From: Chloroflexota bacterium
GTDB lineage: Bacteria; Chloroflexota; Anaerolineae; Anaerolineales; Anaerolineaceae
NCBI GenBank assembly: GCA_029548365.1
Contig: JAKPNN010000002.1
Coordinates: forward strand, 1 to 64,000
Length of the DNA: 64,000 nt
Reading direction: 5' to 3'
The notes below the pieces were generated by a model. The model worked only from the letters and a program-made list of their open reading frames with translations. It made no database searches and had not been told where the DNA came from. This document shows positions 1 through 14,892 of the stretch, in pieces. Every line of letters starts with the position of its first letter. Within the stretch, counting starts at the first letter, position 1. A program made the translations under genes and the position numbers.

Positions 1-180
1 TCCAACTCCAATGCTACTGTCTTTACGTTCTTTCCAACCTTTCGGGTCATGGTTCTTTGCCTTTCGTTTCTGGGTTCTTTATTCACCCCAGTGGCTTACC
101 ATGACCCGCTGCTTTTTGCAGAACTTTTAGGACACTACCCCGGGTTGGCGGGAGGGGTGAAGGGGAGGAATCGCTTGCGG
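1..180. other. Left-edge sequence without a gene
   Basis: The first about 130 bases are clearly less GC-rich than what follows and show no open frame with protein-like features. They contain a string near 130-145 (TTTTAGGACACTACCCC) that resembles the kind of motif seen at insertion-sequence ends, but without a transposase or a matching inverted end in the window this cannot be confirmed. Confidence 0.2.
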
Positions 181-192
181 GTGGGCGGGTGG

Positions 193-846
193 GAGGCTTT
201 CTACTTTAGAGGCGGCTAAGCGGGCAGGATGCCCGCGCGCCGGGAGAGGCGGGGGTGAAAGTGCCGCGTGGGGGCACGCGGCCTTCTAAAGATGGAAGGA
301 AGCGCTGGCAGGCGGCGCGCACGCATGCAGCGTTAGCACGGCATTTCATGGCCGCACGAAAGCCTTGTCGGTCAGCGGGTGGGCAGGTGGGAGGCTTTTT
401 ACTTGAGGAACGGCTAAGCGGGCAGGATGCCCGCGCGCCGGGAGAGGCGGGGATGAAAGCGCCGCGTGGGGGCACGCGGCCTTCTGAAGATGGAAGGAGG
501 TGCTGGCAGGCGGCGCGCACGCATGCAGCGTTAGCCCGGCATTTTATGGCCGCACGAAAGCCTTGTCGGTCAGCGGGTGGGCGGGTGGGAGGCTTTTTAC
601 TTGAGGGACGGCTAAGCGGGCAGGATGCCCGCGCGCCGGGAGAGGCGGGGATGAAAGTGCCGCGTGGGGGCACGCGGCCTTCTGAAGATAGAAGGAGGCG
701 CTGGCAGGCGGCGCGCACGCATGCAGCGCTAGCACGACATTTTATGGCTGCACGAAAGCCTTGTCGGTCAGCGGGTGGGTGGATGGGCGGCTTTCTGCCT
801 GAGGGGTGGCTAAGCGGGCAGGATGCCCGCGCGCCGGGGGCGGATG
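193..846. repeat. 198-bp GC-rich tandem repeat, about 3.3 copies
   Basis: The block beginning GAGGCTTT recurs at 193, 391, 589 and, diverged, at 787, an exact 198-bp period. Each unit contains two perfect hairpins: GCGGGC/GCCCGC with a 5-nt loop, and CCGCGTG/CACGCGG with a 4-nt loop. Because 198 is a multiple of three, long frames stay open on both strands, but their low-complexity Arg/Gly/Ala/Pro products look non-genuine. I read it as a non-coding, REP-like repeat. Confidence 0.8.
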
Positions 847-868
847 AGAATGATTGGGGGCCGGGCCG

Positions 869-2197
869 TTAGAACCCGGCGCTAACGGTATGGAACCCCA
901 CGGGGGCTTCCGGCCGCAGCCGAACTGTCAGCAGAAATACCCGGCTGAAGGTGTTTGCGCCATCACTGACGGTGAGGGTGATATGGGCGCTGCCGATTTG
1001 CCCCGGGCGGGGCGTGAGGGTGACCGTGCGGTGGCTGCCGCTGCCCCCGAAGACAATGCCCGAAACCGGCACCAGGCCCGGGTTATCCGAATTGCCCGCA
1101 AGCGTCAGGCTCGCTGCGTCCGTCTCCGGGTCGCTGATGGTGAAGGGGATGGGCGGCGTGGTGGTGTTGGCCGCCATCACGTAGTCGGCCAGGGCGGAAA
1201 TCGTGGGCGGCTGGTTGGCCGGGTTGACGGTGACGGTGAAGGCGCGGGCGATGAGGTTGTTGCTCGCGCCGCCATCATTGACGGTGACGGTGATCGTGGC
1301 GGCACCACTGGCGGTGGCCACCGGGGTGAAACTGAGGGAGCCGGTGGTGTTGGGGCTGGTGTAGTTCACCGCCGGGGTCGGGATCAGGCCGGGATTGCTG
1401 GATGAGGCCGTAACGGTCAGCGTCTGGGATTCGTTGGGCGCCCCCGCGGTGATGCCGGAGAGGTTGACCGTTTGCCGGCCCGCACCCTGGTTGAGGGTGA
1501 GGTTGGGCAGGGCGTTCAACGTCGGCGGCTGGTTAACCGAATTGACCGTGACCGTAAAGGAGCGGGAGATGAGGTTGTTGACGGTGGCGCCATCGTTGAC
1601 GGTGACGGTGATCGTGGCGGAGCCGTAGGCATAGGCCACCGGGGTGAAGCTGAGGGTGCCGGAGGCGTTGGGGCTGGTGTAGTTCACCGTCGGGGTCGGA
1701 ATCAGGCCCGGGTTGCTGGACGAAGCCGTAACGGTCAGCGTCTGGGACTCATTGGCGGCGCCCGAGCTGATGCCCAGGAGGTTAACCGTCTGGGGGCCGG
1801 CATTCTCGTTGAGCGTCAGGTTGGCCAGGGCGTTCAAGGTCGGCGGCCGGTTGGCCTGGTTCAGCGGAATGAGTGCCGCAATCTCCGCGGAATAATCGCT
1901 CTCCGTGCCGTTGATGTCGGTGGCGGTGGCGGCGAAATAGTAAGTAAGCCCCCCGGCGAGATTGGAAATGGACACCGTCAGGTTGGTGCCAGCCGGAACC
2001 GAATGGGTGTAGGTGGCACTGGCCACGCCGTAGTAAACCCGGTATTGGACGATATCGGGGCTCGGGCTCGCGTCCCAGTTCAGCGTCACGCTCGCGGCGA
2101 AGAGAGAGGGCCGCGGGGCCAGAACGCCGAGCAGGCCCCCCAGCAGGCTGAGGGACACCGCGCGCTTCCGGAAGAACAACAATACTGAGTGCGACAT
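869..2197 (-). CDS. Secreted fibronectin III / Ig-like repeat protein
   Basis: A 442-residue protein with an N-terminal signal peptide (a basic start, then a Leu/Gly-rich core to about residue 34). Residues about 36-112 form a fibronectin type III domain (SVTLNWDASPSPDIVQYRVY). Three further repeats of about 90-100 residues begin with NRPPTLNAL/NQPPTLNAL/NQPPTISAL and end with SATITVTVNDG-type strands, as in cadherin-like or Ig-like adhesive folds. The first two repeats are nearly identical to each other, which points to recent duplication. There is no catalytic domain and no sorting signal that I recognise at the C-terminus. The role is probably extracellular binding or structure; the substrate is unknown. 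It is divergently transcribed from the kinase-like gene at 2668. Confidence 0.75.
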   Translation of the reverse strand: MSHSVLLFFRKRAVSLSLLGGLLGVLAPRPSLFAASVTLNWDASPSPDIVQYRVYYGVASATYTHSVPAGTNLTVSISNLAGGLTYYFAATATDINGTESDYSAEIAALIPLNQANRPPTLNALANLTLNENAGPQTVNLLGISSGAANESQTLTVTASSSNPGLIPTPTVNYTSPNASGTLSFTPVAYAYGSATITVTVNDGATVNNLISRSFTVTVNSVNQPPTLNALPNLTLNQGAGRQTVNLSGITAGAPNESQTLTVTASSSNPGLIPTPAVNYTSPNTTGSLSFTPVATASGAATITVTVNDGGASNNLIARAFTVTVNPANQPPTISALADYVMAANTTTPPIPFTISDPETDAASLTLAGNSDNPGLVPVSGIVFGGSGSHRTVTLTPRPGQIGSAHITLTVSDGANTFSRVFLLTVRLRPEAPVGFHTVSAGF

Positions 2198-2667
2198 ACG
2201 CTAACCCGCTCAACGCATAAATGCTGCCAACTCCGCTGGAGCCGCCGGCCCAAACCGCGCCAATACGGCGGCCTGGCTATAAATGAGACACGCCCCGCCC
2301 GCGAACGCGGTTAAACGGATTATTCGGCCGCGTTTTGGAGGTTCCACCACGGGCTGACGGCGCGCGCCCCGGCCCCGTGCCCCGCCTCCGCGCAACCCCG
2401 CCGGGCGGGCGGCGAAAGTTTTTCAGACAGTGTGTCCCGGAAAAGCACAGGGCACCCACCGCCGCCATAAGCCCGCCCCCCGGAGGCTATACGGCCGCGG
2501 CCCCGGAAAACCGGGGCGGCTGCGCGAACGGAAACCGCCGGACGCGGAGCCGGCCGCCCGGCGCAGGAACAGGCTTCCCTTGCCGGCCCAACCGTGGTAA
2601 CGTTTCTTGAGAGCGCACGGCAGACGGGACGCGAAATGGAAACGGACGCAGGAAGCAAAAAATACAC
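2198..2667. other. Intergenic region between divergent genes
   Basis: About 470 bases lie between two divergently transcribed genes, so the promoters of both should be here. I see no convincing -35/-10 pair, RNA gene or repeat. The open frames that cross it are short and rich in Arg, Pro and Gly, as expected by chance in GC-rich DNA. Confidence 0.5.
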
Positions 2668-3375
2668 ATGAAGACACAAGCTGGATTAGAGCGGGCTTTG
2701 AGTTTCATCAATTGCCAGTTGCAGCCGGGAGGCGCGGGGCAGACCGCGCGTGAAACGGACGCGCCGCGGCGCGCCGTGACCATTTCCCGCCAGACCGGCT
2801 CGGGCGCGCATATTGTGGCCCAGAACCTGGCAGCCTACCTGCACGCGCACGAACCCAAAGACGCCTGCCCGTGGGCGGTGTTCGATCGCAACCTTGTGGA
2901 GAAAGTCCTCGAAGACCACAATTTGCCCCAGCGCCTGGCCCGGTTCATGCCGGAAGACCGCGCCTCCGAAATCACGGACATCATGAACGAGCTGTTCGAC
3001 CTGCATCCCCCCTCCTGGACGCTGGTCCACAAAACCACCGACACCATTCTCCGCCTGGCGGAGCTGGGCAACGTGATCCTGATTGGCCGCGGGGCCACCG
3101 TGATCACCGCCAAGCTCCCCTACGTCTTCCGGGTCCGCATCATCGGCTCGCTGGAGAAGCGGATTAAACACGTGCAGGAGCTGGATCATTTCACCCGCCC
3201 GGTGGCGCGGGCGCGGATTCTGCAGGAAGACCGCGGGCGCAAACGCTACCTGCGAAAGTATTTCGACGCCGACCCCGATGATCCCCTGCTCTACCACCTC
3301 ATCATCAACACCGATGATGTGCCGTACGAAGAAGCCGCGCGCATCATCGGCGAGGCCGTGCTGCGACGCCGCTGA
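2668..3375 (+). CDS. Cytidylate kinase-like family protein
   Basis: A 235-residue protein of the cytidylate-kinase-like (Cytidylate_kin2) family. It has a phosphate-binding loop variant SRQTGSGAH at residues 40-48 and a second conserved LIGRGA motif at about 138-143; the C-terminal half carries the Arg-rich lid region (SLEKRIKHVQELDHFTR). Family members are usually annotated from these motifs and their substrate is rarely known; they differ from housekeeping Cmk in the P-loop. The first 35 residues are variable and may include an N-terminal extension if a later start is used. It stands alone here, divergent from the repeat protein and convergent with the propeller gene. Confidence 0.75.
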   Translation: MKTQAGLERALSFINCQLQPGGAGQTARETDAPRRAVTISRQTGSGAHIVAQNLAAYLHAHEPKDACPWAVFDRNLVEKVLEDHNLPQRLARFMPEDRASEITDIMNELFDLHPPSWTLVHKTTDTILRLAELGNVILIGRGATVITAKLPYVFRVRIIGSLEKRIKHVQELDHFTRPVARARILQEDRGRKRYLRKYFDADPDDPLLYHLIINTDDVPYEEAARIIGEAVLRRR

Positions 3376-3493
3376 GGTTCCCCCAAACGCAGGGAACGCG
3401 CAACTCGCCTGGCAGCCCTTGATTCAGGCGCCTTTCGCCGCGCTCAATTGAGCGCGGCCCCGTTGCCGTGCGGTGGCTGCGGCGGGCGGGGCG

Positions 3494-4894
3494 CTATTTT
3501 TTGAGCGGGCCGGGGAAGGCGATCAGGTCGGAGCGGGTCTTGCCGTTGGCCGTGATGCGCGGGAGGGTATAGATCATGCCGTCCTTGCCGATGGCCATGG
3601 CGTTGACGTAGAGCGGGCGCTGGCCGTCGGGGTAGAAGACGGCGCCGTGGTCGGTGTATCGGCCGGTCTTGAGGTCGTAGGTGATGAGGTGCAGGTCTTC
3701 GAGGCCTTTGGCTTCGCCCATCGCGGTTTTGGCCTTGCCGGCGAGGCGCTGGCCGTCAATGTAGATGGGAGCGCCGGTGAGGTAATGGATGGTCTTGCCG
3801 TCGGGGCCGAGGGCAAAGGCCAGGTAGCCATAGCTGAACTGGTCGAACATGCCGCTGCGCTTGGAGGGTTCGGAGGTGATGCGCTGCATGACTTCGAGGC
3901 GCGGCACGCGGGGGTCGAACCGGAACAGGTATCCCGAGTTGCCGTGGACGCCATAGATGAGGTTGTCCTGCTCCCGCCAGAAGGTCTGGCGCCAGTTGTA
4001 GCCCATGTGCCCGGCGTCGGTGGGGTCGTAGCTGCCGAAGTAATCCTTGACCATGGTTTCTCCCTTCATCGCGCTCACGGAGTCGCTCGCGGCATCGTAG
4101 CGGAAGATGGTGCCCTCGGAGGAGGTGAAGTAGGCGGAACCGTCCCGCGGGTCCACGACGATGGAGCGGCAGACGGTGCGGTAGGCCGGGCCGGTGCCGT
4201 TTTCCCCCTCGGCGCACATTTTGCCGAAGCTCTTCTGGTTGCGGGTGGCCAGGTCGTAGCGGTAGAAGATGCCGCTGGGCCAGGTCAGGGCAAAGAGACG
4301 GCCCCGGCGGGTGTCCATGTTCATGGTGAGCACGCCCTCGCGCTCCGGGCAGATGCCGTAGTCCTCGAACTTGCCGGTCTTCAGGTCGTAGGAGAGCAGG
4401 TGGCCGCCCGGGTAGGGTTTATAGCCCGCCGGGGGGATGCCCATGGTTTCCTTGCCGTCCACGTAGCTGTACACCCCGACGTGGGTGGCGAAATAGAGCT
4501 TATGATCCTTCTCGACGAAGTTGACGTGGCTCTTGCCCTGGGGAATGGCCTTGCTGCCCTTTTCGCCGCAGGCTTCCGTCACGTCGCCCACTTCCTTGAT
4601 CTGCTGGGTCTTGGGATCGAAGCAGAACATCTTGGCGCCCTGGTCAATATTCTCCGAGCTCAGGACGTAGTAGATCTTCCCGTCGCTGCCGGTGCCCATC
4701 GAGTTGTAGCTGTCGTGCCCCAGGGCAAAGTGGGAGTCATAGACCCGGGCGATGATTTTCCTGCCTTTGTAGGCCTTGCCGTCCGGGACGACGAGGCGCG
4801 GGGCGGCGTCCTGCGCGGCGCTGATGAGAACGCCGGCGCCGAGCAGCGCGGCGGTGAGCGGGAACAGAGTGTGGGCGGAGAGGATTCGGTTCAT
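3494..4894 (-). CDS. Secreted beta-propeller-like protein, unknown function
   Basis: A 466-residue protein with a clear signal peptide (residues 1-27, ending around SAAQDAAP). The body consists of repeated four-stranded blades with motifs of the kind DGKIYY, LYFATHVG, RLFALTW, GSAYFTSSEG, and LLSYDLKTGKFEDYG, as in periplasmic six- to eight-bladed propellers of Planctomycetes and Verrucomicrobia. There are four cysteines but no recognisable catalytic motif. It may bind or hydrolyse a carbohydrate, but nothing in the sequence proves that. A small Cys-rich ORF ends 15 bp upstream on the same strand and could be co-transcribed. Confidence 0.7.
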   Translation of the reverse strand: MNRILSAHTLFPLTAALLGAGVLISAAQDAAPRLVVPDGKAYKGRKIIARVYDSHFALGHDSYNSMGTGSDGKIYYVLSSENIDQGAKMFCFDPKTQQIKEVGDVTEACGEKGSKAIPQGKSHVNFVEKDHKLYFATHVGVYSYVDGKETMGIPPAGYKPYPGGHLLSYDLKTGKFEDYGICPEREGVLTMNMDTRRGRLFALTWPSGIFYRYDLATRNQKSFGKMCAEGENGTGPAYRTVCRSIVVDPRDGSAYFTSSEGTIFRYDAASDSVSAMKGETMVKDYFGSYDPTDAGHMGYNWRQTFWREQDNLIYGVHGNSGYLFRFDPRVPRLEVMQRITSEPSKRSGMFDQFSYGYLAFALGPDGKTIHYLTGAPIYIDGQRLAGKAKTAMGEAKGLEDLHLITYDLKTGRYTDHGAVFYPDGQRPLYVNAMAIGKDGMIYTLPRITANGKTRSDLIAFPGPLKK

Positions 4895-4909
4895 AGGTTT
4901 TGCGGATGA

Positions 4910-5161
4910 CTAAACAAGGGGGGCGCGTTCGCGCGCCCCGGTGGGAGCCGGGCGGGCCGGTTCCGGTTCGTAGGATTTCCGGCCATAGACCACCGCATAC
5001 GCCCGGCAAAACGGGCACAGGCGCGCGAAGGTCCGGACCAGCCAGAACGCCAGCCCCGCCTGCTGGCGGCGCGCGCGCTGGCACACGACGCAGTGGACGC
5101 TGCGCTGCGCGAGAAAACGGAGTCTGTCGCCGGACTGGTTCATAACCCTAATGCCGGGCAT
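4910..5161 (-). CDS. Small CxxC-containing protein
   Basis: An 83-residue frame containing two CxxC pairs (HCVVCQ at about 23-28 and LCPFCRAY at about 48-55) separated by about 22 residues, the spacing of a small zinc ribbon. It lies just upstream of, and on the same strand as, the propeller gene. A second ATG six codons in is an alternative start. The paired cysteines are what make it look real; GC-rich DNA yields many chance frames, so confidence is moderate. Confidence 0.4.
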   Translation of the reverse strand: MPGIRVMNQSGDRLRFLAQRSVHCVVCQRARRQQAGLAFWLVRTFARLCPFCRAYAVVYGRKSYEPEPARPAPTGARERAPLV

Positions 5162-5286
5162 TCTGCCAAAGTCCCGGCCCGCGTCAACCGGTTTCTCGCG
5201 CCGGTTTCCCGCGCCGCCGCCCCCGGCGGCGGGGGCATCTCCCGGCTTTCCAGCGGGGCGGGTTTGGTGTTTAGTGGCAGCCGCTT

Positions 5287-6228
5287 ATGATTAAAACCGC
5301 ATTATTATTTGCCGGGCAAGGCGCGCAAGTGGTGGGCATGGGCCGGGATTGGGCGCGGGAACTGCCCACCGCCCGGAGCTGGTTTGACCGGGCCAACGCG
5401 GCGCTGGGCTACGACCTGGCCGCGCTTTGCTTTGACGGGCCGGAAGCCGAGCTGACCCGGACGGAGAACGCGCAGCCGGGCATCTTCCTCGTGAGCTGGG
5501 TGGCGCTGCAATTACTGCGGGAGCGCGTGCCGGGGCTGAGCTTCCAGGCCGCCGCGGGCCTGTCGCTGGGCGAGTTCACCGCCCTGACGGCGGCGGGCGC
5601 GCTGGGCTTTGAAGACGGCTTGAACCTCGTGCGCCAGCGGGGGCGTTTCATGCAGGAAGCCTGCGCGGCCACCCGCGGCGGCATGGCGGCCATCATCGGC
5701 CTGGATGAGACCCCCACCCGCGAGGTCTGCGCCCAGGCCGGGGTGACGCTGGCCAACCTGAACTGCCCCGGGCAGTTGGTCATTTCCGGGCCCGCCGAAC
5801 ACATCGCCCGGGCCTGCGAGCTGGCCCGGGCCCGGGGCGCCCGCCGCGCGCTGCCGCTGCCCGTCGCCGGCGCCTATCATTCGCCCCTCATGGCCAGCGC
5901 CCAGCCCAAACTCCAGGCCGAGCTGGAGCGGGTGACCCTGCGCCCGCCCGCCGTCCCGGTCATCGCCAACGTCACCGCCCGGCCGCACGACGGCCCGGAG
6001 ACGCTCCGCGCCCGCCTGGTCGAGCAGGTCACCTCGCCGGTGCGCTGGGAGGAGTCCATGCGCTACCTGATCGAGCAGGGCTTCACCCGCTTCCTCGAAC
6101 TGGGCCCCGGCACCGCGCTGACGGGTTTTATGAAGCGGATCGCCAAGACCGCGCAGGTGTATAACGTGGCGGATATGGCCAGCCTGGCCGCCACGGCGGC
6201 GGCCCTGGGCGCGGACGGGGCGCGGTAG
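5287..6228 (+). CDS. fabD: Malonyl-CoA:ACP transacylase
   Basis: A 313-residue FabD that loads malonyl groups from CoA onto ACP for fatty-acid elongation in the cytoplasm. The oxyanion motif GQGAQ is at residues 10-14, the nucleophile is Ser93 in GLSLGEF (Leu instead of the usual His before the Ser), the carboxylate-binding Arg is in RQRGRFMQEA (about 118), and the catalytic His198 is in GAYHSPLM. Length is normal for the family. It is the first gene of a fabD-fabG-acpP-fabF cluster on the + strand; plsX and fabH, often next to it, are absent immediately upstream. Confidence 0.95.
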   Translation: MIKTALLFAGQGAQVVGMGRDWARELPTARSWFDRANAALGYDLAALCFDGPEAELTRTENAQPGIFLVSWVALQLLRERVPGLSFQAAAGLSLGEFTALTAAGALGFEDGLNLVRQRGRFMQEACAATRGGMAAIIGLDETPTREVCAQAGVTLANLNCPGQLVISGPAEHIARACELARARGARRALPLPVAGAYHSPLMASAQPKLQAELERVTLRPPAVPVIANVTARPHDGPETLRARLVEQVTSPVRWEESMRYLIEQGFTRFLELGPGTALTGFMKRIAKTAQVYNVADMASLAATAAALGADGAR

Positions 6229-6272
6229 CGGCTTGACAAGCGCCCGCGGATAGCGGAAAAGAAGCGCGTTTT

Positions 6273-7016
6273 ATGAACGAATTAGCCCAACAAGTGGCCG
6301 TGGTGACCGGGGCCGGGCGCGGCATCGGCCAGGCCATCGCCCTGCAACTGGCCGCCGCCGGCGCCGACATCGCCGGGGTGGACCTGCAACCGGAATCCTG
6401 CGCCGAGACCGTGGCGAAAGTCCAGGCGCTGGGCCGCCGGGCCTGGGCCTTCGGGGCCAACGTCGCCGACGCCGCCAGCGTGACGGCCGCCGCGGAGCAG
6501 ATCCTCGCCGCCGCCGGCAAGGTGGACATCCTGGTCAACAACGCCGGCATCACCCGGGACGGCCTGCTGATGCGCATGAGCGAGGCCGACTGGGATGCGG
6601 TGCTGGACGTCAACCTCAAGGGCACCTTCCTGTTCACCAAGGCCTTCACCCGCAGCTTCCTCAAGCAGCAATCCGGCCGCATCATCAACATCGCCTCCGT
6701 CATCGGCCTGATCGGCAACGCCGGGCAGTGCAACTACGGCGCGAGCAAAGCCGGCGTCATCGGCTTCACCAAGTCCGCCGCCCGGGAGCTGGCGTCCCGC
6801 GGCATCACCGTCAACGCCATCGCCCCCGGCTTCATCGAGACCGCCATGACGGCGAAGATCAGCCCCGAGGCGCGCGCGGCGCTGCTGAAGCAAATCCCGC
6901 TGGGCAGCCTGGGCCAGCCCGCGGACGTGGCCGGCGCCGTCCTGTTCCTGGCCGGGCCCGCCGGCCGCTACCTCACCGGGCAGGTGCTTTCGGTGGACGG
7001 CGGCATGGCCATGTAA
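6273..7016 (+). CDS. fabG: 3-oxoacyl-ACP reductase
   Basis: A 247-residue short-chain dehydrogenase that reduces beta-ketoacyl-ACP with NADPH. The nucleotide-binding motif TGAGRGIG is at 12-19, the structural NNAG motif at 89-92, and the catalytic triad is Ser142, Tyr155 and Lys159 (YGASK). The C-terminus [15 protein letters not shown] is typical of FabG. It follows fabD after 44 bp and precedes acpP by about 75 bp, consistent with a single operon. Confidence 0.95.
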
Positions 7017-7092
7017 TTTATTTTCGCTTCGGGCTTGACGCCCTTTGAACCTTAACATAGACACACTGCAAAACGAAGAACTGGAGAAACAC

Positions 7093-7338
7093 ATGGCAGA
7101 TAAGACGATTGAACAACGAGTCAAAGACATCATTGTCGAGCAACTGGGGGTGAATGCGGACCAGGTCACGCCCGAGGCCAAATTCATCGAAGACCTCGGG
7201 GCGGATTCCCTCGATACGGTGGAACTGGTCATGGCGCTCGAAGAGGAATTCGGCAGCGAGATACCCGACGAGCAGGCCGAAAAGCTGCAGAGCGTCGGCG
7301 ACGTCATCAAATACATCGAAGACCTGGAGCAAAAGTAA
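7093..7338 (+). CDS. acpP: Acyl carrier protein
   Basis: An 81-residue acidic acyl carrier protein. The phosphopantetheine attachment site is Ser39 in [10 protein letters not shown], followed by the conserved helix II ([14 protein letters not shown]). I chose the ATG at 7093 because GGAG lies at 7083-7086 and the product then starts [11 protein letters not shown] as ACPs normally do; the frame is open further upstream to a TTG at 7045, which would add 16 non-conserved residues. It sits between fabG and fabF as in most bacteria. Confidence 0.95.
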
Positions 7339-7404
7339 TTCGACCGTGAAGAGTTCCGGGGTGGCTCGAACTGGCATCAGCGAGGGCTGCCCCGTTTGAT
7401 TTTT

Positions 7405-8664
7405 ATGGGCAGTAATTGGACCGAACGCCGCGTCGTCGTCACCGGGCTGGGGGCCGTGACCCCGCTGGGCAACCAGGTGGACGAGTTTTGGCAGAACCTG
7501 CTGGCCGGCCGGTGCGGCATCGGCCGCATCACCCGCTTCGACCCCGCCCGGTTCGATTCGCAAATCGCCGGCGAGGTGAAGGCATTCGACCCCAGCCCCG
7601 CCCTGCCCTCCCCCAAGGAAATCCGGCGCACCGACCGCTTCTCCCAGTTTGGCTTGCACGCCGCCTGGCAGGCCCTGCGCGACTCGGGCCTGGACCTCGA
7701 GCGGGTCAACCGCGACGAAGTGGGCGTGCTCATCGGCTCCGGGATCGGCGGGTTGCAGACCGTCTCGGAACAATGCCAGATCCTGAGCGAGCGCGGCCCG
7801 GGCCGGCTCTCGGCCTTCATGATCCCCATGCTCATCGTCAACATGCCCTCGGGCATCTTCTCGATGTACCACAAGCTGCGGGGGCCCAACTTCGCCACCT
7901 GCTCGGCCTGCGCCACCGCCAACCACGCCCTGGGCGAAGCCTGGCGCACCGTCAAGATGGGCGACGCGCAAATCATGTTCGCCGGCGGCGCCGAGGCCAC
8001 CATCGTCCCCATCGGCATCGGCGGCTTCTGCGCCATGAAGGCGCTCAGCACCCGCAACGACGACCCCGCCCGCGCCTCGCGCCCGTTTGACCGGGAACGC
8101 GACGGCTTCGTCATGGGCGAGGGCGCGGGCGTGCTCGTGCTCGAAGAACTGGAGCACGCCAAAAAACGGGGCGCCCGCATCTACGCCGAAATCGCCGGCT
8201 ACGGCAACACCGCCGACGCCAACCACGTCACCGCCCCCAGCCCGGACGGCGAGGGCGCCGCCCGCTGCATGAAAATCGCCGTGCGCGGCGGCGGCCTCAA
8301 CCTCGAGGCCATCTCCTACATCAACGCCCACGGCACCTCCACCCCCCAGGGCGACATCGCCGAAACCCGGGCCATCAAGGCCCTCTTTGGCGACCACGCG
8401 CGCCGCCTCGCCGTCAGCTCCATCAAGGGCGCCACCGGCCACATGCTGGGCGCGGCGGGCGCGGTCGAAATGATTGCCTGCGTCAAGGCGATCCAGACCG
8501 GCATCATCCCGCCCACCATCAATTACGAAGTGCCGGACCCCGAGTGCGACCTGGATTACGTGCCCAACACCCCGCGCCCCATGAAGATCGAGGCCGCCCT
8601 CAACAATTCCTTCGGCTTCGGCGGCCACAACGCCAGCATCCTGGTCAAAAAGTTCAACGGCTGA
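7405..8664 (+). CDS. fabF: 3-oxoacyl-ACP synthase II
   Basis: A 419-residue KAS II condensing enzyme. The catalytic Cys169 is in the motif [12 protein letters not shown], and the two active-site histidines are in [12 protein letters not shown] and [13 protein letters not shown]. The usual FabF ending [18 protein letters not shown] is present. I place the start at the ATG at 7405 ([14 protein letters not shown]); an in-frame TTG nine bases upstream is less likely. It closes the fab operon and is the last confidently Verrucomicrobia-like gene before the mobile element. Confidence 0.95.
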
Positions 8665-8895
8665 CCCGCGCCGGGCCTCGTCCCGGGCGGAACCGCCGCC
8701 GCCCCCACCGCACCGCCCCCGCGAACCCCGCGCGCCCGCGCGCCCGCGCCCGCAAACCCGTTCCTCCCACCCCGGGCCCGCGCTTTGCCTCCCCGCGCCC
8801 CGCCTTCCCGTCCGCGGGCTGCGGGGCGGCGGCGGACCTTTCCGCGACGCGGGGTTGCGAGGCTTTTCGACGGAAGAAACCGGCGGGGAGGAGGT

Positions 8896-8953
8896 TGGTA
8901 CCCCGGCTAGGACTCGAACCTAGAACCAATTGATTAAGAGTCAACTGCTCTGC
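8896..8953 (-). tRNA. 3' fragment of tRNA-Lys(CTT), interrupted
   Basis: On the minus strand this is the 3' 58 nt of a tRNA, including encoded CCA (TGG at 8896-8898), acceptor 3' strand CCGGGGT, an intact T-arm (CTAGG/CCTAG around TTCGAGT), and an anticodon arm with loop CTCTTAA, giving anticodon CTT (Lys). The sequence past 8953 does not continue into the D-loop and 5' acceptor strand, so the gene is cut after the D-stem. An integrase gene begins 80 bp away, so I read this as an attachment-site end of an integrated element. The complete tRNA copy expected at the other end is not in the window. Confidence 0.8.
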
Positions 8954-9033
8954 ATCGATTAAAACAATACCCCTATATATAGGAAGTAAGCCTGTAATTA
9001 CTGAGTAAAAACCTGTATATAAGGGTGTTTTTT

Positions 9034-10011
9034 ATGACGCAAAAAAAAGCAACCAATAGACTATTTGAAAATAAACCGTCAGAAAACGATCAGATGTTAA
9101 GTGTTAGCGTTTCACAATCCGACATTTCAAAATGGATTGAAGCGTTTATTTTAGATCGCAAGGTTAAGGGATTGGCAGCCGGAACGATCTATTTTTATCA
9201 GATGATGCTGAAATTATTTACTCAGTATCTGGAGCGGTGCAGCAGCCCAGTAAACCTGAATGAGATCACCCCTAACCTGGTTAGGGCTTTTATGATCCAC
9301 TTAGAGGATACCGGACACAACCCAGGCGGCCGGCACGCGGCGTATAGATCATTAAGGGCATTAGTCTATTTTTGGCGTGATGAAGTTGAGCCGAAAAACT
9401 GGAAAAACCCGTTTACCAAAGTGGCGGCCCCGATAACAAGAAAAACACCACTACCTCCCATTGAATCGGCAAGCATTCAGGCATTATTAGCTACATGCGA
9501 AATAAAAACCAAAACCGCAGAACGGGACGCGGCTTTAATTTTAAGTTTGGCGGACACTGGAGCCAGGGCAAATGAATTACTGAGTATGAATCGGGATGAT
9601 CTCGATTTGATCACCGGTGAAGTTTACATCAGGCAAGGTAAAGGAAGTAAACCCCGTTTTGTGTTTATCGGGAAAAAAGCCCGGAAGGCAATCCGGCAAT
9701 ATCTCAAGGCCAGGAATGACAGCGAGCCGGCATTATGGATTTCTGAACAAGGCGGCCGGCTTACATATTGGGGCTTGCGTGAAATGATCAGACGAAGGTC
9801 AAAAGCGGCCGGCATTGAAACCCCTGGGCTACACGATTTCAGGCGATTCTTTGCGCTTGCTTGTCTTAGAAATGGCATGAACTTACACACACTCAGGCAA
9901 TTAATGGGCCACTCTGATTTACAAATGTTACAGCGATATTTAGCACTCAGTAATGATGATTTGCAGAAGGGCCATATTGCAGCTGGCCCAGTAGATCATT
10001 TACTTCTGTGA
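9034..10011 (+). CDS. Tyrosine recombinase / phage integrase
   Basis: A 325-residue tyrosine recombinase. The N-terminal SAM-like core-binding domain covers about residues 28-120, the catalytic domain about 145-310. The catalytic set is complete: Arg178 (TGARANELL), Lys203 (GKGSKPR), His267 and Arg270 (HDFRR), His293 (MGHSD) and the nucleophile Tyr302 (LQRYLAL). The C-terminal part (RRFFALACLRNGMNLHTL) is of a kind I associate with Chloroflexi integrases. I chose the ATG at 9034 because AAGGG lies eight bases upstream; a GTG at 9025 is in frame. It most likely catalyses integration at the tRNA-Lys end 80 bp away. Confidence 0.9.
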   Translation: MTQKKATNRLFENKPSENDQMLSVSVSQSDISKWIEAFILDRKVKGLAAGTIYFYQMMLKLFTQYLERCSSPVNLNEITPNLVRAFMIHLEDTGHNPGGRHAAYRSLRALVYFWRDEVEPKNWKNPFTKVAAPITRKTPLPPIESASIQALLATCEIKTKTAERDAALILSLADTGARANELLSMNRDDLDLITGEVYIRQGKGSKPRFVFIGKKARKAIRQYLKARNDSEPALWISEQGGRLTYWGLREMIRRRSKAAGIETPGLHDFRRFFALACLRNGMNLHTLRQLMGHSDLQMLQRYLALSNDDLQKGHIAAGPVDHLLL

Positions 10012-10229
10012 AACATTCTGTGAAACATTGATACTGAGTATTGGTGGGGGGTTCTGCCGCCATATGTAGACAAAATACCGAAATATATCCCTTTTTACCC
10101 CGTATTTACGGCAACCTTAAAATATGTGATTCTTTAACAATAAAACTGGAAAGAATAAATTTTCTATGATATTATTGTTGTAACACACAAAGAAAAGTGC
10201 AACCTCGCTCTGAGGATCGGTTAAGCCGG

Positions 10230-10287
10230 CCCGGATGCTACGAATAAGGAGAAACAACATCCCTATTCGTCATCCGGGTTTTTTATT
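10230..10287 (+). terminator. Long hairpin plus T-run before the RHH gene
   Basis: CCCGGATG at 10230-10237 pairs with CATCCGGG at 10271-10278, and ACGAATA pairs with TATTCGT inside it after a 2-nt bulge, followed by a run of six T. The loop contains AAGGAG, a perfect ribosome-binding sequence that is not followed by a start codon. A second small hairpin (CCTC/GAGG) lies just upstream at about 10203-10215. It is either the terminator of an unrecognised leader RNA or an attenuator for the gene at 10308. Confidence 0.6.
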
Positions 10288-10307
10288 ACAGAAAATGGAG
10301 ATAGTAG

Positions 10308-10508
10308 ATGTTTATAGAAAAACCCCAAAAAATAGAACGAATAGCACTCCGGATCGAACCCGCATTAAAAAATGATCTGTTAGCCCTGGCGCGAACAAAA
10401 GGGATTTCATACAGTGAGGCGATCCGGCAAATGATCAATAAACAAGTTAAAGCAAATAAGACAAGCGAAAGGTTGGTTGAGTATGAAGTGGAAAAGAAAA
10501 ACGATTAA
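10308..10508 (+). CDS. Small ribbon-helix-helix-like protein
   Basis: A 66-residue basic protein whose first part fits the ribbon-helix-helix fold: a short strand (KIERIALRIEP), helix A (ALKNDLLALARTKG) and helix B (SYSEAIRQMINKQV), as in CopG/Arc or the DNA-binding part of relaxosome and antitoxin proteins. A likely role is repression or copy control of the element. It lies directly behind the long hairpin at 10230-10287. No toxin-like partner follows in the same operon. Confidence 0.6.
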   Translation: MFIEKPQKIERIALRIEPALKNDLLALARTKGISYSEAIRQMINKQVKANKTSERLVEYEVEKKND

Positions 10509-10515
10509 TAAAAAA

Positions 10516-10534
10516 GCCCCGCAGTGGGCGGGGC
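10516..10534 (-). terminator. GC-rich hairpin with T-run on the minus strand
   Basis: GCCCCGC at 10516-10522 pairs with GCGGGGC at 10528-10534. On the minus strand it is followed by TTTTTTATTA, so it would stop transcription running leftwards; on the plus strand no T-run follows. Confidence 0.4.
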
Positions 10535-10586
10535 GGTGGGGTGGCTTGCCAAACATTTACATCAACAAAAGGAAGGGACGGGCTAA

Positions 10587-10913
10587 ATGTCTGACATATT
10601 TAGTATAACACAAAACCCCTATTCAAACATTGAGGGAATTAAATTACTGAAAAACTGGCAGTATGTTCAGGCCCTGTATGCTATTGGTTGCCGGCGATTT
10701 GAGATGTCGTTATGTGGTGCGGTTTATATTGACGGGATGCCGAATGACAAAATCTCAATGGGGATCATAAGAACAAAATTAAGAGAATTGGATATTAAGT
10801 TTTGTACTGGGTGGCTAAACGATGTGATCCTCATATTGGCATATAAGAATGCAGACCTGGATAAGCCCAACAATTTACCTGATTGGTTGAGGCCGAAAGG
10901 CTGGGAATTATGA
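10587..10913 (+). CDS. Hypothetical protein of the element
   Basis: A 108-residue protein that I do not recognise. It contains alternating hydrophobic strands and a WLRPKGWEL ending. Its stop codon overlaps the start of the helicase gene (ATGA at 10910-10913), which indicates translational coupling and suggests it works with the helicase, for example as a primase or loading accessory. GGGACGG upstream of the ATG is a weak ribosome-binding site. Confidence 0.55.
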   Translation: MSDIFSITQNPYSNIEGIKLLKNWQYVQALYAIGCRRFEMSLCGAVYIDGMPNDKISMGIIRTKLRELDIKFCTGWLNDVILILAYKNADLDKPNNLPDWLRPKGWEL

Positions 10914-12442
10914 CACAAAACACACTATACGATAGTTTAGTACAACATGGCATTTCAAAAAAAGATGCTAAACAGTTATCATCAGCATTTTCTAACAATG
11001 GGAACTGTAAGCATTTTCTGGATGGGTTAAAAACCATTGGGGGGCTTATAGACGGCATATCTTCAGCAGATGATTTTAAAGCCGGCAATGAGCCAAAAAG
11101 CGAACCCTGGACATCAATCTATGAACATATGGCCCATGAAATCATTCAGAACAATACTGACCCGTTAGAGGCATTCAGTCAGACATTGGCAGCCTGGGAT
11201 AACCAATGGGATTTACAGCAAGCAATCAGCAAAGCGGCGGGTTACCAGATGAAGGTAATTCAAGAACAAAAAGAATTAGAAAGCCAACAGGGGCGGAAAA
11301 AAGAACGCCAAACAGAAGATTACAAAAAAGCCCTCACGTCCCTGGGTTACACTTTCAGGGTTTGTATTATGAATGACACAATCGAAGTTAACAATCAACC
11401 CATTACAGATTTTACTGAGGCAAAAATTGTTAATGCAATGACCGACCGGGGTTTTCAAACGGCTAAGACTATCAGGGTTATTACTGATATGGCAGCAGAT
11501 ACTCAGTATCACCCGATAAGGGAGTACCTTGACGGCCTAACCTATGACGGCGGCGATTACATCCAGGCCCTGGCATCTTATTTCAATGATCAATATGGAA
11601 TGTTTTCAACCTGGATTAGAAAATGGCTAATTGGCTCGGTTGCGAAGGTTTATAAAGCAGAACAAAATCCTATGCTAGTTTTGGATGGTCGGCAAGGGAT
11701 CGGAAAATCTGTATTTGCGCGCTGGTTAGCCTCTCCCCTGCATGAGTATTTTATTGAAGGGCCAATAAACACCAATGACAAAGATTGTGAAATCCGGCTA
11801 ATTTCAAATTGGATCTGGGAAGTTAGCGAGTTAGGGACGACAACCCGAAAATCCGATTATGAGGCATTGAAGGCATTTCTAACAACCAGGAAAGTATCAG
11901 TAAGAAAACCATATGGCAAACACGACATAAACAAGCCGGCCCTGGCCTCATTCATTGGAACTATAAATAATTCATCCGGAGTTTTTTCAGATCCAACAGG
12001 AAGCCGGCGATTCTTAACCTCAAAACTGATTGATATTGTCTGGGATTATGCGAATGACCTCACACCTGATCAGATTTGGGCCGAAGCCATGGCAGCATAT
12101 AAAGACGGGGAAATCTGGCAATTGACATCTGATGAAATAAATAAAAGCAATGTAATCAATACTGAGTATGATGTCCCGGATGTGATTGAAGGTTTAATGA
12201 TGAAATTCTTTGAACTGGATAATACAAAAGATGATTGGTGGATTCCTACAAGCGATATTCTGGCCATACTAAAAGACCCGATAAAGGGCGATCTCAGGGG
12301 TAATGATCGATCGCTTGCTATGGACCTTGGCAAAACGATGACAAGGCTCGGACACGAAAGCAAAAGGCGAAAAAACAATCTGGGAAATAGTGTTAATGGG
12401 TATACAGGCATCAAATTATACTCAGTATTCCCTGGGCCATAG
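10910..12442 (+). CDS. VapE/VirE-like P-loop ATPase (replication helicase)
   Basis: A 510-residue protein of the virulence-associated E (VirE/VapE) superfamily found in phage satellites, prophages and plasmids. The Walker A motif is GRQGIGKS at 260-267, an acidic Walker-B-like VSELG at 305-309, and a conserved segment KPALASFIGTIN followed by DPTGSRRFL completes the SF3-like core. The N-terminal about 200 residues show no primase motifs, and a Gln/Glu/Lys-rich segment at about 117-142 is probably a linker. I use the ATG at 10910, which overlaps the previous stop; a TTG at 10883 is less likely. It probably drives replication of the excised element from the repeat-rich region just downstream. 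Confidence 0.8.
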   Translation: MTQNTLYDSLVQHGISKKDAKQLSSAFSNNGNCKHFLDGLKTIGGLIDGISSADDFKAGNEPKSEPWTSIYEHMAHEIIQNNTDPLEAFSQTLAAWDNQWDLQQAISKAAGYQMKVIQEQKELESQQGRKKERQTEDYKKALTSLGYTFRVCIMNDTIEVNNQPITDFTEAKIVNAMTDRGFQTAKTIRVITDMAADTQYHPIREYLDGLTYDGGDYIQALASYFNDQYGMFSTWIRKWLIGSVAKVYKAEQNPMLVLDGRQGIGKSVFARWLASPLHEYFIEGPINTNDKDCEIRLISNWIWEVSELGTTTRKSDYEALKAFLTTRKVSVRKPYGKHDINKPALASFIGTINNSSGVFSDPTGSRRFLTSKLIDIVWDYANDLTPDQIWAEAMAAYKDGEIWQLTSDEINKSNVINTEYDVPDVIEGLMMKFFELDNTKDDWWIPTSDILAILKDPIKGDLRGNDRSLAMDLGKTMTRLGHESKRRKNNLGNSVNGYTGIKLYSVFPGP

Positions 12443-12444
12443 GA

Positions 12445-12474
12445 GAAAACCAGTGAAAACCAGTAAAAACCAGT
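12445..12474 (+). repeat. Iteron-like array A, 10 bp x 3
   Basis: Three direct repeats GAAAACCAGT / GAAAACCAGT / AAAAACCAGT immediately follow the helicase stop codon. The core is related to arrays C and D further downstream. Confidence 0.75.
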
Positions 12475-12490
12475 AGTTAAAGGGCATGAA

Positions 12491-12619
12491 TACATACATA
12501 CATACCAACCTTATAAAAAAACTATTTTAAGTATTAATTAAAGCATACAAAGAATAATGACAGCGGAAACGATTAAACGGTTTAAAGGCAAAGGTATGTA
12601 TGGTATGTATGGTATGTAA
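12491..12619. repeat. Array B: inverted TACATA / GGTATGTAT repeats
   Basis: TACATACATACATACC at 12491-12506 faces three perfect-to-near-perfect 9-bp direct repeats GGTATGTAT at 12593, 12602 and 12611. The two groups are complementary, so the region can fold into a large stem or bind a protein cooperatively. Confidence 0.75.
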
Positions 12620-12798
12620 TCCGGTTGAGATTTTGGAGGTGCAAGGGAGAAAATACTGAGTATCAAAGGGTAATGATCAGTGAATGAGATACAAACTGGG
12701 TTGAATGAATTGGAGCAAACTGGTACTCAAATGTGCCATATAGCGGAAAAAACCATTATTTTACGGCGCTTACTCAGTAGAGACTCAGTAGGGTTTTG

Positions 12799-12831
12799 GT
12801 AGAAAACTAGTAGAAAACTAGTAGAAAAATA
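12799..12831 (+). repeat. Iteron-like array C, 11 bp x 3
   Basis: GTAGAAAACTA occurs twice and GTAGAAAAATA once in perfect tandem, right after two adjacent TACTSAGTA-type sites at 12770-12791. Confidence 0.75.
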
Positions 12832-12847
12832 GAGTAGTTTTTGCAAA

Positions 12848-12899
12848 TTGACATTTTCTCATAAACTATAATTGCCTTAAAATAGAACGGTTGTTCTAT
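12848..12899 (+). promoter_or_regulatory. Possible promoter with LexA-like (SOS) operator
   Basis: ATAGAAC at 12882-12888 and GTTCTAT at 12893-12899 form a perfect palindrome around GGTT. The core GAAC-N4-GTTC matches the LexA/DinR box of Gram-positive-type bacteria. Just upstream are TTGACA at 12848 and TATAAT at 12867, although their 13-bp spacing is shorter than normal. The operator would lie at the transcription start, a position suited to repression. Confidence 0.5.
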
Positions 12900-12950
12900 G
12901 TTTGCGCTAGCAGTATTGCTTATAAAGGTTAGCAGAAAAGGTTAACAAAT

Positions 12951-13070
12951 ATGGAATTACAAACAGATGAAATGATTGAAATAAACACCGGTTATCACCA
13001 ACTAACTTATTTTGATTGCGCAATTCCCCGCGGGCACTGCTTGCGATTTAAGGGGGTGCTTATAAACTAA
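12951..13070 (+). CDS. Small 39-aa ORF behind the LexA-like box
   Basis: A short frame starting MELQTDEMIEINTG and ending LRFKGVLIN, acidic at the start and basic at the end. It begins 52 bp after the LexA-like operator and is the first ATG of that putative transcript. The ribosome-binding site is weak (AGG about 10 bases upstream) and I recognise no family. It could be an SOS-induced regulator such as an excisionase or antirepressor, or a non-coding leader. Confidence 0.3.
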   Translation: MELQTDEMIEINTGYHQLTYFDCAIPRGHCLRFKGVLIN

Positions 13071-13074
13071 TTAA

Positions 13075-13130
13075 CAGTACAAACCAGAAAAAACCAGTAC
13101 AAAATCAGTAGAAAAACAGTACAAAATAAA
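13075..13130 (+). repeat. Iteron-like array D, about 10-11 bp x 5
   Basis: Five degenerate units with the core CAGTACAAAA (CAGTACAAAC, CAGAAAAAAC, CAGTACAAAAT, CAGTAGAAAAA, CAGTACAAAATA) lie upstream of the gene at 13166. The core resembles array A (CAGTGAAAAC) and array C (AGTAGAAAAC), so arrays A, C and D may bind the same protein. Confidence 0.65.
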
Positions 13131-13165
13131 ACACCTGGAAAACCAGGACAGAAAAGGACATAATC

Positions 13166-13826
13166 ATGAATAAAGATACACGGATTGAAATAAGAGAAAA
13201 ATTTTCAAAAATCAATCACACCTTGAAGGATTACCAGGCAGCCAGGGAAGAGTACAAGCGTCAGGTTGCCAAGATTAAAGACCAGGGGAGAACTTACACC
13301 CAGGAACATCTAGAAAAAAAAGCTGAAGGAAGCGCAAATGCAGTTGAGGGAAGCGGGAAAAGCCGCGCTGGAAGCTATGAAAGCGCAGGTGCATGATTTG
13401 ACCGCTAAGCTAATTGAGGTTGATGGGCGACCAATTGAGGCGGAGCGTATGCAATCCTTAAGTGCAGCTTTGCAGTTGATCCAAACCGGCGCGTTGGATT
13501 ACAAGGCAGCAAGCCAGGTAAACCAAACCTTTTTGGGTGATCAAACCGAATTAAAGACATTACGGCGCGCATATCGACAAGCCAACCTTGCAGACGGCGG
13601 CGTTGATAAAATGATCTATCCCTATGAAATTGAACTGTTGCCAAAAACCCTACTCGATACCGCTTATGGTGTTTTTGTTGGCGGGGACATCAGCGTTAAC
13701 CAGTTAGCTAACAAGATCGCCGAAATTGCGAGATACTGGGGCATAACTGATCATGACTGGAAAATTGACCCGTCCGGTTTAGTGAATGCAGCCAGGCAAG
13801 CCGCGGGGTTACCACCGCAGGACTGA
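13166..13826 (+). CDS. Coiled-coil hypothetical protein, frame interrupted at an A8 run
   Basis: Two frames overlap here. The first (13166 on) encodes MNKDTRIEIREKF and a Lys/Glu-rich helix; the second, open to 13826, encodes a continuing coiled coil and a C-terminal domain ending ARQAAGLPPQD. They join smoothly if one A is removed from the eight-A run at 13314-13321: the helix then reads EKKLKEAQMQLREAGKAALE. The combined product is about 219 residues. The cause could be a sequencing homopolymer error, a true frameshift, or transcriptional slippage. The C-terminal domain has no family I recognise; the position after the repeat-rich region suggests an element-specific accessory protein. Confidence 0.5.
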
Positions 13827-13955
13827 ACAGCATGAAATCGCCACAATCGGTTAAATAGTGGTCAAGTTTTGGTGAAAGCTACACCAGAAGCCCCCAAAGC
13901 GATACTAAGCGTTTTTACTCAGTACCCATAGGGTGGATATTGTAATCGAATAATA

Positions 13956-14005
13956 AAGCCGGTATTGAAACTCTGAGCTATCTCAAAAACATTTTATACC
14001 GGCTT
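13956..14005 (-). terminator. Hairpin, possible terminator on the minus strand
   Basis: AAGCCGGTAT at 13956-13965 pairs perfectly with ATACCGGCTT at 13996-14005 across a 30-nt loop. On the minus strand it is followed by TATTATT and lies 10 bp after the stop of the small frame at 14015-14230. Confidence 0.4.
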
Positions 14006-14014
14006 ACTATTGCT

Positions 14015-14230
14015 TTATTGCTTTTTCCTAACAACAATAATAATCTCTCTCCCAAAGATGATGATACTCATAAAGATATTATTAGATATTTTTTCAAATC
14101 GAATAAAAGACGGCTTAAGATAATTTGTTTTAATATTCATTTCAAGAATCCTTTCAGAGGCATTGCCCCATTTGATTAGTTTCCACTGAAAGGGGTGTTG
14201 GGAGTTATAATACTGAGTATCCCTGATCAC
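14015..14230 (-). CDS. Possible small protein at the element's right end
   Basis: A 71-residue frame, basic, ending in a hydrophobic stretch (IFMSIIIFGREIIIVV) before RKKQ. Its start overlaps the last TACTSAGTA palindrome and a terminator-like hairpin follows its stop. I recognise no family and see no convincing ribosome-binding site, so it may be chance. Confidence 0.3.
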   Translation of the reverse strand: MIRDTQYYNSQHPFQWKLIKWGNASERILEMNIKTNYLKPSFIRFEKISNNIFMSIIIFGREIIIVVRKKQ

Positions 14231-14253
14231 TGCCGTTTCAGTGGTTTGGGTTA

Positions 14254-14292
14254 GCCCTGGTCAGTGCTAATGACACTGGTCAGGGCGTTTTA
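14254..14292 (+). terminator. Hairpin terminator
   Basis: GCCCTGGTCAGTG at 14254-14266 pairs with CACTGGTCAGGGC with one internal mismatch pair, then GTTTTAAA. It lies at the probable right edge of the mobile element. Confidence 0.5.
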
Positions 14293-14351
14293 AATGATGA
14301 ACAATGGTTATTATAAGGTAAACCGGTTTGTTGTCAATAGTATGTATGGGT

Positions 14352-14654
14352 TCAATACATATGAGACAATTGGGGGATGATCGAGGGGTGGTATTGTTGA
14401 ATATACTCATAAGGCGTCAGGTTGTCCAGAGCACGATGGGGACGGACATTATTGTAGATTCTTTCCCATTCTTCAAGCACGTTATTGAGTGTTGGTGAGG
14501 CAAAGTCAATCGGATAAGCTGAATAGAATTCGTCCAAATGGGTTCGATGGGCTCGTTCAACTCTGCCATTCAGTTTAGGAGAGCGGGGCGGTAACACAAA
14601 CAATTTCAAGCCCAGTTCTGCACAACTTTCTTCAAAATGAATTTTTGAATTCAC
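14352..14654 (-). pseudogene. C-terminal remnant of an rve-type IS transposase
   Basis: About 100 residues match the end of a DDE integrase-core transposase: LFVLPPRSPKLNGRVERAH, then a WERIYNNVRPHRALDNLTP segment. The catalytic Glu region is partly present, but the two Asp-containing parts are missing: upstream of residue 1 the frame turns into unrelated sequence (SEQTAQADEAV). No inverted repeats are seen. The fragment marks the junction between the mobile element and the Chloroflexi-like block, and it abuts a truncated phosphorylase gene. Confidence 0.7.
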
Positions 14655-14673
14655 TGCCTCATCCGCCTGAGCC

Positions 14674-14892
14674 GTCTGTTCAGAGATGGAAGCAGCTGCA
14701 CTCTTTATTCTTTCCTCGATTTACCGTAAACGGGCGGGTGGGGTCATGCATATGGTCAGCCTGTATAAAGAAAGTGATTTGACTACTGAGGAAAAAGATG
14801 CACTTCTTGATGTTGACCGACCGATCCGGGTGGCGATTGAAGCCATTAAGATATTAATTGAAAAAGATCGACAGTCAAAAGCAGACTATTAG
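14674..14892 (+). pseudogene. C-terminal remnant of a nucleoside (uridine) phosphorylase
   Basis: The last about 72 residues of a PNP/UDP-family phosphorylase: SEMEAAALFILSSIYRKRAG is the conserved ribose-binding motif (the E-M-E in uridine and purine phosphorylases), and the C-terminal helix DRPIRVAIEAIKILIEKD ends normally. An in-frame TGA at about 14671 and the IS remnant immediately upstream remove the rest of the gene. It probably once continued leftwards, so the chromosome was rearranged here. Confidence 0.65.

Follow-up and report, generated by a model that had tools for sequence, protein, structure and literature searches.

What does a short palindrome do that is repeated throughout a small integrative element and is missing from the DNA around it? 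The question is raised by the window analysed here, a stretch of 64,000 nucleotides (64 kb) from a metagenome-assembled genome (MAG) of an Anaerolineaceae bacterium (Chloroflexota; GenBank assembly GCA_029548365.1, contig JAKPNN010000002.1, positions 1 to 64,000), in which an element with a tyrosine integrase gene and a VapE-type helicase gene carries the nine-letter, mirror-symmetric word TACTSAGTA (S is C or G). There are 11 exact copies in the window and every one of them lies at 8999-14219; the other parts of the window contain none. Dinucleotide shuffles of the window (n = 100) gave a mean of 0.06 copies and a maximum of 1, so that none reached 11. With one mismatch allowed, 21 matches were found in the window compared to a shuffle mean of 3.79. 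The clustering of TACTSAGTA in the element is confirmed as real, chance being excluded by the shuffles.

The copies, none of which is assigned a strand, are distributed over coding and non-coding DNA. The form TACTGAGTA occurs upstream of the integrase gene (8999-9007), inside it (9578-9586), in intergenic DNA (10032-10040), inside vapE (12160-12168), in non-coding DNA (12654-12662) and, as the last copy, at 14211-14219. The form TACTCAGTA occurs inside the integrase gene (9219-9227), inside vapE (11500-11508), at the vapE end (12419-12427), at 12771-12790, where the one-mismatch GACTCAGTA follows it, and in non-coding DNA (13916-13924). The other one-mismatch copy, CACTCAGTA, is at 9944-9952. 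Since the element has 11 exact and two one-mismatch copies (starting at 9944 and 12782), the first-pass annotation was correct in counting thirteen, confined to the element. It had described an 11-bp form, WTACTSAGTAW (W is A or T); the core is present at all 11 sites, but W stands on both sides at only nine, the exceptions being 12771 and 13916, with a 3' G and C, respectively. The whole source MAG (1.65 Mb, 70.7% complete) contains 13 TACTSAGTA, 11 of them in the element, and three matches to a reversed-pattern control. Only two sites are thus left in 1.65 Mb beyond the element, far from the chromosomal density of a HIP1-like or uptake-type sequence.

Distribution of the motif among phages and chromosomes

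Related VapE elements were searched for the motif, as the first-pass annotation had proposed, and the nearer VapE relatives carry it in the extended form ATACTSAGTAT. In Ornatilinea apprima (G026; Anaerolineaceae) all four ATACTSAGTAT of the genome lie within one prophage (160958-187118 of one contig) and there are none outside it in 4.3 Mb, the genome-wide count being for the 11-base form only. A 32-kb phage from IMG/VR (G447) has six sites. In this phage and in the O. apprima prophage (OAPP) exact sites averaged 0 in 20 Markov shuffles. Both were found through VapE, and they and the terminase set described below are the finds made independently of the motif. Two of the three ATACTSAGTAT in genome G445 are on a phage contig, and G446 has none. 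The first-pass annotation had named absence from otherwise similar elements as evidence against its claim, and such absence was seen in part: 28 of 30 IMG/VR loci with a distant VapE (at most 36% identity) had no site and two had one, and among 29 short loci surrounding relatives of the integrase 28 were siteless. A scan of IMG/VR with the element integrase yielded no relative.

An order-wide scan found at least one ATACTSAGTAT in 150 of 400 genomes, and among the places listed in that scan local clusters fall in members of the Anaerolineaceae. Ten clusters were fetched, all from this family; as they were found through the motif, their enrichment is selected. TACTSAGTA counts were 21 in G647 (30 kb), 26 in G523 (35 kb), 12 in G018, 8 in G517, 7 in G736, 5 each in G697 and G661 and 2 in G722, while G602 (12 + 5) and G738 (8 + 6) each carried theirs on two contigs; wider flanks added two sites in G661 and one in G018. 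The cluster in G523 holds 26 of the 31 sites of that genome. Densities were highest in the element (2.09 sites per kb), followed by G602 (0.99), G523 (0.73), G647 (0.70), G018 (0.43) and G447 (0.18). The phage nature of the clusters is indicated in G647 by a terminase, an exonuclease, a primase-polymerase (Prim-Pol) and other families (PHROGs), in G523 by a terminase (Pfam), and in the remaining clusters by gene clusters in common with these two or with one another. Gene clusters, and the open reading frame (ORF) and frame counts given below, are based on greedy ORF calls, and phage gene names without a family hit are readings of the sequences.

Eight re-examined genomes of other families in the order were near the reversed control, with TACTSAGTA and control counts of 22 and 20 (G461), 20 and 23 (G488), 11 and 13 (G491), 24 and 23 (G733), 16 and 9 (G527), 11 and 29 (G538), 11 and 7 (G566) and 5 and 3 (G520); the judgement is based on counts for five of them and also on individual places for G527, G491 and part of G461. 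Two members of the Anaerolineaceae were also near the control (26 vs 25 in G028, 16 vs 16 in G674). Two scans of IMG/VR for stretches with two sites returned 26 and 15 stretches. Twelve of these 41 were dense, with up to 15 sites in 13.8 kb, in a set defined post hoc (at least four sites at no less than 0.4 per kb, plus L197) that includes one near-identical pair (L164 and L176) and two stretches from one contig (L177 and L178).

A terminase scan of 141 genomes of the family gave six hits in five genomes. Two hits lie in motif-bearing prophages (G026 and G523); further phages with the motif, G647 and G018 among them, escaped the profile. The other four stretches, which are phage-like by the terminase hit and some common gene clusters (one is an 11.5-kb contig), have no site, and one of them lies elsewhere in O. 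apprima. No other dispersed palindrome was flagged in these four. Because they lack sites, the motif seems to belong to particular phages and not to all those of the host. The tie to mobile DNA that had been claimed for the motif was upheld: clusters lie in such DNA in the genomes examined, and the chromosomes checked are at background or zero.

Selection on the DNA sequence

The codon-preserving shuffle that had been suggested as a check was run. The coding DNA of the element has five sites compared to a mean of 0.155 and a maximum of 2 in 200 synonymous-codon shuffles; over 17 motif-bearing sets there were 128 coding sites vs 6.65, and four motif-free sets had none. Sites lie mostly inside predicted ORFs and use all three frames (65, 32 and 7); in the rare frame a G at the centre produces a TGA stop. 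Relative to transcription the centre base in predicted ORFs is C at 54 sites and G at 50, so there is no strand bias. The codon-shuffle excess, the use of all frames and the lack of strand bias bear out the earlier claim that selection acts on the DNA itself; the lack of centre-base bias also speaks against an RNA-level or strand-specific signal, which was rejected. The frame used most often reads T-[EQ]-Y, which might point to amino-acid bias. Such bias, composition or chance has next to no likelihood as an explanation, being ruled out by all three kinds of shuffle (dinucleotide, Markov and synonymous-codon). In 21 sets with the motif, S stood at the centre of 183 sites and W at the centre of four, and the consensus of the 183 sites is SATACTSAGTATS.

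Homologous stretches were compared in 37 pairs having more than 800 aligned bases and a motif, after pieces of more than 97% identity had been dropped; only ungapped alignment windows entered this comparison and that of G018 below. Conservation of sites was above the 9-mer background in 23 of the 37 pairs, for example 9 of 11 sites in G602-G647 (background 28.5%), 2 of 2 in L168-L174 (3.3%) and 3 of 3 in G018-G647 (10.6%). Summed over 28 of the pairs, which are not independent, sites were kept in 34 of 94 comparisons vs 11.1 expected. Many of the non-motif counterparts of sites were one mismatch off. G018 is without two sites present in G736 and G738, one at 160470 (also in G517 and G602b) and one at 163193, and without two sites of G738b; the reverse case was not seen against G736, G738 or G738b, and these differences may reflect loss in G018 or gain in the others.

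Candidate readers of the site

The word is dispersed in the element and in otherwise different prophages and is rare in the host chromosomes examined, so some protein probably reads it. Single-copy roles, such as one origin or one packaging site, had been among the first suggestions and do not agree with the 6-26 copies that are distributed along prophages. No gene common to all motif sets was found by similarity. VapE was rejected as the common reader, as it has no relative in G018 and phages with a distant VapE are without the motif.

We tentatively favour a symmetric (dimeric) protein, supplied in trans, that would read TACTSAGTA during replication or maintenance of element DNA. On this proposal SATACTSAGTATS would be the fuller form of a cis-acting double-strand site placed along temperate phages of the Anaerolineaceae and along the element. 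The first candidate is the phage replication module, in which a VapE helicase would work with a stand-alone Prim-Pol that carries a CHC2 zinc finger. The element, which has VapE and no Prim-Pol, would be a satellite that borrows the phage Prim-Pol, and denser sites would be to its benefit. More speculatively, TACTSAGTA may be an address label common to dissimilar temperate phages and a satellite of the Anaerolineaceae, a label that one trans factor has to find all along the molecule, with the satellite carrying it at several-fold higher density in order to compete for that factor.

Stand-alone Prim-Pols accompany the motif in ten gene-clustered sets and in further IMG/VR stretches, and all three such proteins scanned have the CHC2 zinc finger. 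Relatives were found in 6 of the 12 motif-dense IMG/VR stretches vs none of the 29 other two-site hits. Going by the excerpt of PMC8718748, published PrimPols can depend on a template motif, for example TTTGGTTA for NrS-1. We also count for the replication module the direct repeats of AGTA half-sites at 10-11 bp spacing in the element, missed by the first-pass annotation, which adjoin vapE. These occupy three stretches at or after its end on the + strand: CAGTG/CAGTA repeats 10 bp apart at the vapE end (12441-12475), CTAGTAG repeats with an 11-bp period (12792-12843) and CAGTA repeats with the same period (13075-13130).

Several observations weigh against a role of this module. The G018 prophage, apparently whole and with 12 sites, has no homologue of Prim-Pol or VapE and has other replication genes. 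No homologue of either was found around the clusters of G697, G661 (whose contig starts inside the cluster) and G517, and the element itself has no Prim-Pol. A primase site in single-stranded DNA need not be palindromic. Runs of at least three YAGTA half-sites were not found in the phages. In 14 of the 37 homologous pairs no site was kept, including G018-G602b (0 of 6), G738b-G602b (0 of 5) and G697-G647 (0 of 4). The link between motif and Prim-Pol may be shared descent alone.

In our ranking, in which both places are held loosely, a trans-supplied replication or maintenance factor comes first and a host silencer second. The latter would be a host-encoded dimeric DNA-binding protein that silences or compacts the resident element, much like a sequence-specific xenogeneic silencer to which prophages have adapted. 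We think this rather unlikely, though it would account for the same site in elements with almost no genes in common (the element and G018 share no cluster), for the restriction of the fetched clusters to one host family and for the background or zero counts outside the element or prophage in the two genomes checked. It is at odds with the siteless second terminase stretch of O. apprima and the three others in genomes of the family. Moreover, 32 short loci around listed or chromosomal sites point to no single autoregulated reader gene: nothing was shared beyond prophage relatives and one 36% match. One of the chromosomal sites, C28:22677 of G000, stands directly before a gene read as lepA and looks like chance. 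Sites resembling Chi or otherwise linked to recombination, serving a nuclease and annealing module of the phages, are improbable. G647 does have genes for a Sak4-like protein, for an exonuclease and for a protein with an ERCC4 domain, the last two of which have relatives in seven sets each, and the sites of G647 (P 0.052), G523 (0.039) and G018 (0.066) are spaced a little more evenly than at random. Spacing is not more even in G447 (0.30), G602 (0.17) or the element (0.70), however; the element is without such a module, and G018 showed none by similarity. Chi sites, furthermore, are polar and enriched in the host, whereas TACTSAGTA is neither in the genomes checked.

The ribbon-helix-helix (RHH)-like protein encoded at 10308-10508 had been proposed as the reader. 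It could in principle bind the palindromes and half-site arrays of this element alone, for partition, copy control or origin activity. Compact 9-bp palindromes and half-sites phased at 11 bp suit RHH dimers, the arrays adjoin vapE and the gene is present, if only as a weak match; even so we put little weight on the idea. As a general reader the protein was rejected, because it has no homologue (phmmer) among 3,816 ORFs from 15 motif-bearing stretches and cannot explain a shared motif; the 108-aa and small ORFs of the element likewise have no relatives in motif-bearing phages. An even poorer prospect is a phage immunity repressor that reads the sites as stoperators and blocks transcription through the prophage. 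Scattered repressor sites are a known feature of cluster A mycobacteriophages, according to the excerpt of PMC6550527. An XRE-type repressor relative is present in ten sets with the motif, once as a fragment and twice in divergent form, and was found in none of the four without it; in eight of the ten a site lies inside its gene or at most 100 bp away. None was found in the G738, G697 and G661 stretches. A repressor is an unlikely reader because G447 (L099) and OAPP (contig C34 of G026), which are 92% identical overall, differ completely in the DNA-binding half of the repressor and in the operators (near 161200-161460 in OAPP), yet keep four of five aligned sites. Positions 1307-1563 of G447 cannot be aligned to OAPP, although the flanks are 89-93% identical and the C-terminal part of the repressor is kept. 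Recognition helices, as read from sequence, vary widely among the phages, the sites are unoriented and neither operator stretch contains TACTSAGTA.

The element, known systems and significance

The element was examined over 8955-14700, and all its genes lie on the + strand. The tyrosine integrase gene (9034-10011; PF00589, 4e-31; ATG start within an ORF listed from 9025) is followed by the gene for the 66-aa RHH-like protein (RHH_1 E 0.0011, below cut-off; PHROG Arc-like repressor, 4.4e-5), a 108-aa ORF (10587-10913) with no family in Pfam- or PHROG-type scans, and vapE (10910-12442; PF05272, 2.4e-40; PHROG DNA helicase, 1.2e-53), whose ATG start at 10910 was taken from the sequence while the family scan ran from 10913. 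Two small overlapping ORFs of 76 and 162 aa (13166-13826) have no convincing family; lying in different frames, they may formerly have been a single gene. Complementary repeats, ATACATACATAC and GTATGTATGG, at 12487-12620 in the non-coding DNA after vapE pair in the predicted DNA fold. Folding of 12440-13140 gave no notable structure (z -0.94).

On the left the element abuts the 3' half of a tRNA-Lys(CTT) gene on the - strand (8895-8955), the 5' half of which is absent and which is the probable left attachment site. About 31 bp of it recur in the intact tRNA-Lys on MAG contig C30, whose T arm is different. No right attachment site was detected as a 10-base repeat of the tRNA half near the right edge or in the window. 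A transposase remnant (rve_3, 2.7e-16) at 14352-14654, just right of the last motif copy, is possibly tied to the missing right end. The DNA before the tRNA half is GC-rich (0.62-0.72 per kb) and has fatty-acid genes read as fabD, fabG, acpP and fabF. The fabF comparison covered 12 genomes of the same genus and other families of the order. A full-length relative was found in none of the 12, which gave two partial matches (at most 33%) in frames of more than 1,100 aa; the best matches (49-54%) were in eight genomes from other families. For this reason positions 1-8955 are probably foreign sequence joined at the tRNA, either by misassembly (a chimeric join) or because the element resided in another organism. 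The nearest VapE loci in the genome collection, six of seven titled Chloroflexi or subgroups and one 'bacterium', argue for an Anaerolineae element.

Satellites of the phage-inducible chromosomal island (PICI), Staphylococcus aureus pathogenicity island (SaPI) and P4 types have an integrase, a small regulator and a VapE-type gene in about 5 kb without structural genes. The element resembles them in all of these, having an integrase and a replication gene and no recognised structural gene, and looks like a phage satellite; unlike them, it has no recognised packaging-interference gene and its right end was not found.

The motif itself has partial parallels. In the part of PMC4351075 available, five similar cluster O mycobacteriophages carry 17-bp dyad repeats, TGTTCGGNNNCCGAACA, of unknown function. 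Those repeats are, like the sites described here, symmetric, dispersed between and inside genes in many copies throughout the phages, and little oriented. The consensus (SATACTSAGTATS vs TGTTCGGNNNCCGAACA) and the host differ, and cluster O is one group of similar phages, whereas TACTSAGTA occurs in prophages with different replication and packaging genes and in a small integrative element. The cluster A stoperators are also numerous short sites dispersed in temperate phages, but as far as PMC6550527 was available they lack symmetry, point along the direction of transcription and change from one repressor to another, in contrast to symmetric, unoriented sites that are kept between phages with differing repressor DNA-binding halves. 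HIP1 of cyanobacteria, in the excerpt of PMC6604393, is a short palindrome kept dense by selection, as here, but is chromosome-wide, whereas TACTSAGTA does not rise above background beyond the mobile elements of the genomes checked. As a separate observation, a 4.9-Mb Chloroflexi MAG (G786) has AAACGGCCGTTT 950 times (reversed control 4), a HIP1-like genome-wide iterated palindrome, and its integrase/VapE locus L061 has AACGGCCGTT five times. No report of the TACTSAGTA motif was recognised among the literature matches listed; PMC9723563, in the part available, is not about such repeats.

What sets the present case apart is a single motif common to phages unlike one another and to a small element, all from one bacterial family. 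Its presence in phages that differ in their replication, packaging and repressor genes, as well as in the small element, narrows the candidate readers. A prophage with the motif and a phage-like stretch without it occur together in a named cultured species, Ornatilinea apprima, and in metagenomes the motif is a sequence mark by which such phages and satellites can be recognised.

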